Source: Thermoplasmatota archaeon (GTDB lineage Archaea; Thermoplasmatota; Thermoplasmata; Thermoplasmatales; Thermoplasmataceae). Taken from it: a stretch of DNA of 44,046 nucleotides. The notes beneath the pieces were generated by a model. That model was not told the DNA's origin. It saw only the letters and a program-made list of their open reading frames with translations, and searched no databases. The position numbers and the translations under genes were made by a program. Below, in pieces: positions 24,092-28,006 of the stretch; positions within the stretch are counted from its first letter, which is position 1; every line of letters starts with the position of its first letter. The stretch spans positions 1 to 44,046 of the forward strand of contig JAMCPQ010000035.1 in the NCBI GenBank assembly GCA_023379825.1, given 5' to 3'.

Positions 24092-25147
24092 GTGAGATTC
24101 TTTTCTCTTAAGAGTGAAATGCTTAATCGATCACCGCATACCTCTCCATTGGCAGATAAATCCTTACTTGAGCGCAAGGTTGTTGAAAAAATACTGAAGA
24201 ACGATTCATATCGTGACAGGATAAATTCTGAAATTGACAGAGCTGTAGAGCTTATTGACTCGGGCCACTCAGGAAAGAGCCTGATGGATCAGATCAGCGG
24301 TGGAAAAAATGAAAAGGTTTCTGTGATTGAGCTTGCCAGATCAAGGATCAGTGCAAGAGGGCGCTTTAAATCCTGGGACAGGTTGTGGCTGGATTCATTC
24401 AGCTCCAGGTACGCCACACCAGAAGCCATTTCAATCCACAGAGCTGAACGGATCGTTGAAAGGAATGTTGTGGACATAGGCTCCGGAGCCGGTATTCAGG
24501 CCATATATCTGCAGAGTCATGGGGGTAACAAAGTCATTGGGATAGAAATAGACCACATTCGCCACCTTCTGTCCAGAATCAATGCTATGGAAATGGGTGT
24601 GAAGGGCATAAGGTTCCTGTCCGGTGATTTCTATAATATGAATATCGATTCAATTGTAACGACCGGCAGCGTTGTTTACTCAGATCCCCTCAGATCTGAG
24701 TCAGTGCCGCCAAAGCATCTTCACGACCTGGTCCCGAATCCAGAGATAGTCTTTCAGAACCTGTCAGCAATTACAGAAAACTTCTGCTTTGACCTCCCGC
24801 CGCATTTACCTGCGAATGCTGTGACAATTAGAGGGGAAATGGAATATATTTCTGTGGATGGTCTTCTAAGCAGGCTGACCCTTTACACAGGAAAACTTCA
24901 GGAATCGGAGACAAGTGCTTTCATTCTTCCGCGAGGAAGGCATTACTCAGGCCGGCCGATGAAGTTTGAATGTTCTGATTCCGAACCTAATGATTATATC
25001 TTTCTTGCAGACCAGGCAGTTGTTGCCTCAGGACTTCTTCATAAGGTAATTGCTGATGGCATGAGCTCAATTTATTGCGACAGCAGACGAACCATTCTTA
25101 CATCGTCATCATTAGTTAGAGATTTCCCAGATAGACCAGAGATTTAA
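24092..25147 (+). CDS. Class I SAM-dependent methyltransferase (THUMP-like-domain family), possibly truncated at C-terminus
   Basis: 351 aa; [29 protein letters not shown]; last residues FPDRPEI* lie in the inverted ribA copy. Confidence 0.8.
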
Positions 25148-25265
25148 TCAGCTGGTCCCTGCAGTCACACCTTCTTGAGCCAAGTACATCCCCTGTAAGG
25201 CATTCAGAATGAATTCTTACCGGGATATCCTGCCTTCCTTTCACATCTCCCTTAACTATAACTGC
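25123..25265. repeat. Left arm of 143-bp perfect inverted repeat (reverse copy of ribA codons ~31-78)
   Basis: Base-by-base comparison: reverse complement is identical to 25509-25651; flanking bases 25122/25652 and 25266/25508 do not pair. Confidence 0.97.
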
Positions 25266-25418
25266 TTATCTCTTCAACCTGAAAGGTGGGTTCTATCTTG
25301 CTGAAAAAATATTTCCGGATATGGTCATTTAACCCCGGAATCAGGGTTTTGGTAAAATTGATTAAGAATTTCTTGATGCATGTTATTATACTATACATTT
25401 ATATGGAGCCGTAATAAA

Positions 25419-25997
25419 ATGCTTGAACTATTTGCAAAGGCTAATTTGCCAACAATGGCCGGAAACTTTGTCATTTATGTTTTCAAGAATGACGAGAACA
25501 AGGATCACGCAGTTATAGTTAAGGGAGATGTGAAAGGAAGGCAGGATATCCCGGTAAGAATTCATTCTGAATGCCTTACAGGGGATGTACTTGGCTCAAG
25601 AAGGTGTGACTGCAGGGACCAGCTGATTAAATCTCTGGTCTATCTGGGAAAGCAGGACTACGGTATGCTGATTTACCTCAGACAGGAAGGAAGGGGCATA
25701 GGCCTGCTGAATAAAATCAAAGCTTACAGCCTTCAGGACCAGGGTTACGATACTGTAGAGGCAAATGTGCAGCTGGGTCTTCCAATCGATCAGAGGGAGT
25801 ATTCCTTTGCCGTGGATGTCCTTAAGTATTTTGGCATAAATTCCATAAAACTCATGACAAACAACCCTGCAAAGATAGATTTCCTGGCAAAGGCAAACAT
25901 AACTGTCAGCGAGAGAATCCCCATCAGAAGCGAGCCCACAGAGTATGATGAATTCTATCTATCCACTAAGAAGATCAGGATGGGACACCAGCTCTGA
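25419..25997 (+). CDS. ribA: GTP cyclohydrolase II
   Basis: [17 protein letters not shown]..., [24 protein letters not shown] zinc/catalytic motif, [21 protein letters not shown]-like atttatatgg about 25 nt upstream of ATG 25419. Confidence 0.93.
25509..25651. repeat. Right arm of 143-bp perfect inverted repeat (inside ribA)
   Basis: See left arm; 243-bp spacer between arms. Confidence 0.97.
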
Positions 25998-26069: not shown

Positions 26070-27158
26070 ATGGGAAAAGTCAACAGCATTACTTCGCCGG
26101 CCCCAAAAGGTGGCGTATCATATAAGCAGATATCCATTGAATACGAGAATATGCCTGTCATACTGAAACCTGTATACACCGGAATATGTGGAACAGACAG
26201 AGGCATAGTGAATGGAGCCCTGCAGTTCGCATACTGCCCTCCCGGTTACAGTGATCTTGCTCTTGGACATGAAAGCATCTGCAAAGTAGTTTCAGCCAAG
26301 AGCAATGAGTTCGGAATACGATCAGGGGATCTGGTGGTCCCCCAGGTAAGGAGGCCGGGAAAATGCCTGAATTGTGCCACAGGAAGAAGCGATAACTGCA
26401 GCGATGGAGACAAACACGAAGCCGGGATTACTGGAATGCATGGATTCATGAGAGAGGAATTTGGCGATTATCCAGAGTATCTCCTTAAAGTCTCATCGGA
26501 CAGCATCAGGGAGGTGGGTGTATTGACGGAGCCTCTCAAGAACGTGGAAAAGGCTTTCGAGGTTTATGAGGTTGCCTCAAGGCGCTCCATCTCTACAGAC
26601 AGGTTCGGGTCTCTCAGTGAGAAAAGGGCCATTGTAATAGGAACTGGCAGTGAGGCCTTTCTCTATGCACTGAAATGCAGAGACTACGGTTTCCAGACTC
26701 TAATAACAAACAGGCATCCTGTAGATGACCTGAAGATGAAGTTTCTCGATGCTGCAGGTGTTGAATTCTTCGATTACACAAAGGAACACAGAGACTCAAA
26801 AGGATGGGACCTCGTGATTGATACCAGTGGCGATCCAGGCACGATACTGCGTTTCCTGAGAAAAACAAATAACAATGGAAACATCATCCTCTTTGGAACA
26901 AACGGGAAGGCCCCAGCTACTGGCATAGATGGCCAGGACATTGACTATATAATCGAAAGGAACATCTTTCTTATTGGTTCAGTGGACGGTGCACGGGTTC
27001 ATTATGAACGGGCACTGCAGGATCTGGAGAGATGGAATGCGCAGTATGGAGACAGGTTGAAATCACTGATAACACATCGCTTTTCACCACAAGACACATC
27101 GGTGTTCACAAAAAAAGACCCGCTCGAGATAAAGAGCGTAATCGACTGGAGCATGTGA
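26070..27158 (+). CDS. Zn-dependent glucose 1-dehydrogenase (Thermoplasma type, MDR superfamily)
   Basis: 362 aa; TGICGTDRGIVNG, LGHESICKVV, RRPGKCLNCATGRSDNC, GITGMHGFM. Confidence 0.9.
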   Translation: MGKVNSITSPAPKGGVSYKQISIEYENMPVILKPVYTGICGTDRGIVNGALQFAYCPPGYSDLALGHESICKVVSAKSNEFGIRSGDLVVPQVRRPGKCLNCATGRSDNCSDGDKHEAGITGMHGFMREEFGDYPEYLLKVSSDSIREVGVLTEPLKNVEKAFEVYEVASRRSISTDRFGSLSEKRAIVIGTGSEAFLYALKCRDYGFQTLITNRHPVDDLKMKFLDAAGVEFFDYTKEHRDSKGWDLVIDTSGDPGTILRFLRKTNNNGNIILFGTNGKAPATGIDGQDIDYIIERNIFLIGSVDGARVHYERALQDLERWNAQYGDRLKSLITHRFSPQDTSVFTKKDPLEIKSVIDWSM

Positions 27159-28006
27159 AATTGCAGCCAATAGATATTAATCCCCTCTATAACTCCATAA
27201 GAAATGGCCTCCGTGAGTTTCTCAGCAAATATAATGAAAAGAACTCTCCTCCAAAGGTTGCCTTCTTAATGGTTGGCTCCAATCCTGCATCTGCCTCCTA
27301 CCTGAACTCGAAGAGGAAACTTGCGGGAAAACTTGGAATAGAGTCTGTCACAATACAGCTGAATGAGGACATTGGAAGGAAAGATCTCCTTGGTAAGATA
27401 GAGGAACTTTCCTCAGATGACAGCATAAATGGCATAATGGTGGAGAATACAATCCCTGCGGGAACAGGCATAACCTATTCCGAGGCTGTTGATCACATAT
27501 CCCCATGGAAGGACCTTGATGGGTCCGGCACAGTAAATCTTGGAAGGACTGCCAAAGGCATCAGCTCCATAGAACCTGCTACTGCAAGATCGGTTATTGA
27601 AACTGTCCGGTTTCTGAAGGTCCCGGTTGGTACAAAGATATGCATAATTAACAGGAGTATCACGGTTGGTCGTCCCCTTGCTATGATGCTCCTGAACAGC
27701 GGATTCACCCCGGTAGTCTGCCACAGTAAAACCATTGATCTGAAAAGCATAACAAGAAGCAGTCCAGTTGTGGTGTCTGCAGTGGGAAAAGCTGGCATGA
27801 TCGATGCATCATACCTCTCCGATGGTTCCACAGTTATTGATGTGGGAATAAACAGCGTTGAAGGGACAATCAGGGGAGACCTGAATACCGGAGACATTTC
27901 TGCTATGAACATAAAATACACTCCTGTACCGGGAGGAATCGGGAAGCTTACATCCATCCTTATATTCGACAATCTCAGGCTGTCCCTCATGAGGTCTGAA
28001 ATATGA
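27155..28006 (+). CDS. folD: Bifunctional methylenetetrahydrofolate dehydrogenase/cyclohydrolase
   Basis: GTG at 27155 overlaps the upstream TGA; VKLQPIDINPLYNSIR...VGSNPASASYLNSKRKLAGKLGI, PVPGGIGKLTSILI. ORF-track start at 27032 is out of frame inside the upstream gene. Confidence 0.93.
   Translation: MKLQPIDINPLYNSIRNGLREFLSKYNEKNSPPKVAFLMVGSNPASASYLNSKRKLAGKLGIESVTIQLNEDIGRKDLLGKIEELSSDDSINGIMVENTIPAGTGITYSEAVDHISPWKDLDGSGTVNLGRTAKGISSIEPATARSVIETVRFLKVPVGTKICIINRSITVGRPLAMMLLNSGFTPVVCHSKTIDLKSITRSSPVVVSAVGKAGMIDASYLSDGSTVIDVGINSVEGTIRGDLNTGDISAMNIKYTPVPGGIGKLTSILIFDNLRLSLMRSEI

Follow-up and report, generated by a model that had tools for sequence, protein, structure and literature searches.

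Short-range template-switch mutations are reportedly described by the four-point model of Loytynoja and Goldman from 2017. In a survey of such mutations in great apes (Walker et al., 2021; PMC7954356) the 1-4-3-2 order was among the two types that make up the majority of events and is said to generate single inverted repeats; the copied tracts had a median length of 12 nt and a maximum of 128 nt. Replication template switches that create or perfect inverted repeats are also reported as the basis of mutation at quasipalindromes, both in yeast and in E. coli (PMC7202029, PMC3820800). Inverted joins are further known as products of phi29 multiple displacement amplification (MDA), in which more than 85% of the chimeras are inverted, sites less than 10 kb apart form the commonest class (93.5% of these with complementarity at the junction) and approximately one chimeric junction arises per 22 kb (PMC1855051).

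The locus described here lies in a window of 44,046 nucleotides (the whole stretch of DNA analysed) from the draft genome of an uncultured Thermoplasmatales-type archaeon (53 contigs containing N gaps; completeness 81.6%). It was compared with its nearest relative, UBA447, a 'Thermoplasmatales archaeon' MAG of the same genus with ~78% DNA identity; the genus is represented by two genomes in the collection, in which a same-species genome for comparison was not found. The locus is like the great-ape events in the local replacement of sequence by a nearby reverse complement, in an apparent 1-4-3-2 order, in the single inverted repeat and in a putative short homology at a junction, and differs from them in being archaeal, with 143 nt copied, ~171 bp replaced and the donor 243 bp away (PMC7954356). 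With quasipalindrome-associated mutation (PMC7202029, PMC3820800) it would share a replication template switch as the source of the inverted repeat, but no long imperfect inverted repeat would have pre-existed here, the methyltransferase–ribA region of UBA447 containing none. The MDA chimeras (PMC1855051) likewise join neighbouring segments in inverted orientation where there is short complementarity; those have one junction each, whereas here there are two, and the genome yielded no further case.

Geometry and uniqueness of the inverted repeat

The coordinates of all features are given in Table 1. The preliminary description had reported a perfect inverted repeat of 143 nt with a 243-nt spacer, the right arm of which covers ribA codons 31–78. 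Both statements were confirmed, the arms being exact reverse complements (100% identity) and the codons being counted from the ATG. In shuffled versions of the window the longest reverse-complement match was 16 nt, so that a chance origin of a 143 nt repeat is excluded.

Table 1. Features of the methyltransferase–ribA region in window coordinates.
Feature	Coordinates	Strand	Remarks
Gene for a class I SAM-dependent methyltransferase, cut short at its 3' side by the left arm	24092..25147	+	351 aa from GTG 24092
Left junction with short microhomology	25123..25128	+	TTTCC common to the UBA447 methyltransferase gene and the reverse complement of ribA
Left arm	25123..25265	-	Reverse-complement copy of ribA codons 31-78 inside the methyltransferase gene; 143 nt, 100%
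Right junction	25259..25274	+	Exact match to reverse-complement ribA stops at 25265; gapped similarity to 25274
Methyltransferase 3' remnant	25266..25331	+	YLFNLKGGFYLAEKIFPDMVI-stop; the UBA447 homologue reads YLFNINDRFYLAEKMFPGET-stop
TATA-box-like ATTTATAT region between the arms	~25395..25402	+	~24 nt before the ribA ATG; found by eye; region conserved in UBA447
ribA, GTP cyclohydrolase II, intact	25419..25997	+	192 aa; PF00925 E = 9.7e-59; TIGR00505 230 bits versus cutoff 206
Right arm, donor and original sequence in intact ribA	25509..25651	+	Collinear with ribA of relatives

The repeat has no further occurrence in the genome. No second exact inverted repeat of at least 22 bp was found in the window or in 1,222,717 bases of the genome (~98% of 1.25 Mb), and a further scan gave no other imperfect inverted repeat of at least 30 bp at E <= 1e-4; the sequence was scanned piece by piece, so that pairs straddling piece boundaries could have escaped. 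The genome pieces scanned contain 13 N runs of 236–870 bases each (for example L108 6902–7415), which are probably scaffold gaps; the window contains none. The genome of UBA447 has an exact inverted repeat of 42 bp elsewhere (L244, contig C60, 3522–3563 and 7961–8002), the right copy of which ends at the contig end; it looks like a contig break at a repeat boundary.

Both ribA and the promoter-like region before it were left intact by the event. Two side observations were made on this part of the window. Firstly, the ribA promoter region together with the first ~28 codons (25337–25475) shares 93–100% identity with UBA447 in each 40-bp bin as far as 25464, and ribA dS between the two genomes is 0.39 for codons 1–28 and ~3 (saturated) for the rest of the gene; the conserved start of ribA could be an overlapping regulatory element or could reflect a recent exchange. 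Secondly, a dehydrogenase-like ORF (26070–27158) overlaps the next listed ORF (27032–28006, FolD-like by eye) by 127 bases, and the true start of the latter is probably located further downstream.

Comparison of the methyltransferase gene with relatives

UBA447 has the same neighbouring genes as the window, and its orthologue of the methyltransferase gene upstream of ribA is intact, with 402 codons open. The alignment of the two genomes is collinear to ~25122 and resumes at ~25266. Between these points 171 bp of UBA447, flanked by TTTCC and TATCTT, correspond to 144 bp in the window, 143 of which are reverse-complement ribA; the sole match of the left arm in UBA447 is to ribA, in antisense orientation, at 83% identity. 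Collinear flanks and an exchange of 171 bp for 144 bp identify the left arm as a replacement and not an addition. The replaced ~171 bp had encoded 57 residues not far from the C-terminus of the methyltransferase. The preliminary description was correct in recognizing a reversed copy, but its placement directly upstream of ribA has to be amended: the arm overwrites part of the methyltransferase 3' region, the reading frame stopping inside the arm and the C-terminal codons resuming at ~25266.

The truncated protein ends with RDFPDRPEI, in which native codons extend to approximately DFP (25121–25129) and are followed by DRPEI and a stop codon at 25145–25147. Past the arm, the remnant comprises the last ~20 methyltransferase codons, which are still readable. 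With UBA447 as a proxy the microhomology at the left junction amounts to 5 nt (TTTCC) and would be 3–8 nt according to what the lost native sequence was; a probability of 0.005 obtained for it carries no weight, as the relative stands in for the lost sequence. The right junction shows little or no clear microhomology.

A 402-residue methyltransferase query had a match in 70 of 77 family genomes (34 of the 35 better ones). The matches reached at least residue 388 of 402 in 67 of 77 family genomes; that of the window ends at residue 328. All relatives aligned contain, with small variations, a block consisting of FPG, ~56 residues and Y-(L/I)-F, which is absent from the window. A profile search with the family alignment matched 3gdh_A (E = 5.3e-10) and 3ll7_A (positions 84–328, E = 1.3e-7). 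PDB entry 3ll7, a putative methyltransferase with an extra C-terminal domain, is matched in the core and beyond, and the window protein is without the last part of this C-terminal region. Judged by these matches, the family resembles trimethylguanosine synthase homologues and 3ll7, and its C-terminal domain would seem to have been lost in the organism of the window. When the genome was searched with the full-length methyltransferase, neither another, unbroken copy of the gene nor a separate C-terminal piece was found.

Comparison with related genomes, as suggested in the preliminary description, was extended to the 28 relatives whose ribA region gave a match, and the antisense arm was present in none of them.

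Origin of the repeat

The repeat was probably made by a single replication template-switch mutation of the four-point type 1-4-3-2. During replication of the methyltransferase 3' region, a nascent strand would have left its template at the short microhomology and annealed to the complementary strand inside ribA, or snapped back on itself; it would then have copied 143 nt of ribA in reverse orientation before rejoining the original template ~171 bp further on. The switch points would be located at 25122–25128 (point 1), 25651 (point 2), 25509 (point 3) and 25266 (point 4). With a fork moving from left to right a switch between strands would be needed, and with a fork moving from right to left snap-back of the nascent strand would suffice. 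The outcome would be an inverted piece of ribA lying over 57 methyltransferase codons, with the perfect inverted repeat as a by-product. The donor tract is retained nearby, and what originally lay from point 1 to point 4 is replaced between collinear flanks; that the ancestral 171 bp were replaced, rather than an arm added, speaks for a template switch in which the template changed twice. The replication mechanism, and its occurrence in a living cell, are what we infer from the locus. Against a template switch fixed as a mutation, it is somewhat unexpected that a conserved single-copy gene should be broken in its only assembled copy, and the 143-nt tract exceeds the 128-nt maximum of the great-ape survey (PMC7954356). 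The scant microhomology at the right junction likewise counts against it.

The alternative that best survives is an origin in vitro, which we consider possible but rather doubtful: an inverted amplification or library chimera, formed by re-annealing of a displaced 3' end, would have passed into the consensus where coverage was thin. To our knowledge, a k-mer assembler alone cannot join sequences on an overlap of ~5 nt, and a chimeric join, if any, would consequently already have been in the reads. The perfect identity of the arms, the draft state of the assembly and the break in a near-universal gene are all in keeping with such a chimera, as is the predominance of inverted joins with short complementarity among MDA products (PMC1855051). 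A simple chimera, however, has one junction; two are present here, the flanking sequence is correct to the left and to the right, and the ribA original has stayed where it was. Moreover, despite an MDA rate of ~1 per 22 kb, the repeat is the sole one of its kind in ~98% of the genome, and this lack of a sibling makes an amplification artefact acting across the genome less likely. The preliminary description had listed an assembly or amplification artefact beside a recent inverted duplication. Both were reasonable proposals, the latter being the better supported; what the preliminary description had missed is that 171 bp of a conserved gene were replaced in the process.

The template switch would have been recent. 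The arms differ at 0 of 143 sites, which gives an upper 95% bound of ~2% divergence if gene conversion between the arms is assumed to be absent, compared with ~22% to the sister species. Before the arm the methyltransferase gene was under purifying selection (dN/dS ~0.1, at a dS close to saturation), and no decay is seen in the 3' remnant; taken together with the identical arms, this indicates that the event is recent and that the gene was functional until recently. Arms of inverted repeats tend towards homogenization (PMC8604942), and gene conversion could in this way have preserved the identity of an older inverted copy; past the arm the 3' remnant still looks intact and can be compared with its homologue, which speaks for a recent event and makes an older copy very improbable.

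A role in regulation had been put forward in the preliminary description, as cis-antisense or attenuation potential and as an invertible segment, and neither proposal fared well. As a functional cis-antisense element or attenuator, the left arm would be carried on read-through RNA from the methyltransferase gene, pair with ribA mRNA and lower riboflavin synthesis. The joint transcript is indeed predicted to fold very strongly (-344 kcal/mol for 25123–25651 versus -95 kcal/mol for 25300–25651 without the left arm, the two lengths being different), but any long perfect repeat gives such a fold. The arm breaks a conserved gene and is shared by none of the 28 relatives, and the TATA-like element (found by eye) lies between the arms, so that ribA RNA initiated from it would begin downstream of the left arm and contain the right arm only. 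This function is accordingly regarded as highly unlikely. A search against Rfam gave nothing above the gathering score; two matches below it, to eukaryotic miRNA and lncRNA models, were taken as spurious. Least credible of all is an invertible switch in which the perfect arms recombine, so that the 243-bp spacer, and with it codons 1–30 and the promoter of ribA, is turned round and the gene is off: inversion in silico leaves a truncated RibA of 79 aa on the minus strand, a gene under strong constraint (dN/dS versus UBA447 of 0.005) would be lost in the off state, no recombinase was recognized by eye among the translations of the window ORFs, and the repeat is absent from the relatives.

Implications

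If the repeat did act at the level of the strain, either as a reversible switch flipping the promoter and first 30 codons or through double-stranded RNA formed between read-through transcripts and ribA, riboflavin synthesis would vary between cells; we attach very little likelihood to this. Were the junction sequence a chimera, the methyltransferase of the species would be intact and the window sequence would need correction. As a template switch the event is ordinary in kind and of mild interest as a long and fresh archaeal scar of this type. Should the junctions hold in the reads, it would represent a clean and very young long template-switch mutation in an archaeon, lying over part of a conserved gene. 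It would then warn against taking a perfect inverted repeat for a regulatory element, and would be useful for estimating the frequency of such events outside eukaryotes and E. coli.
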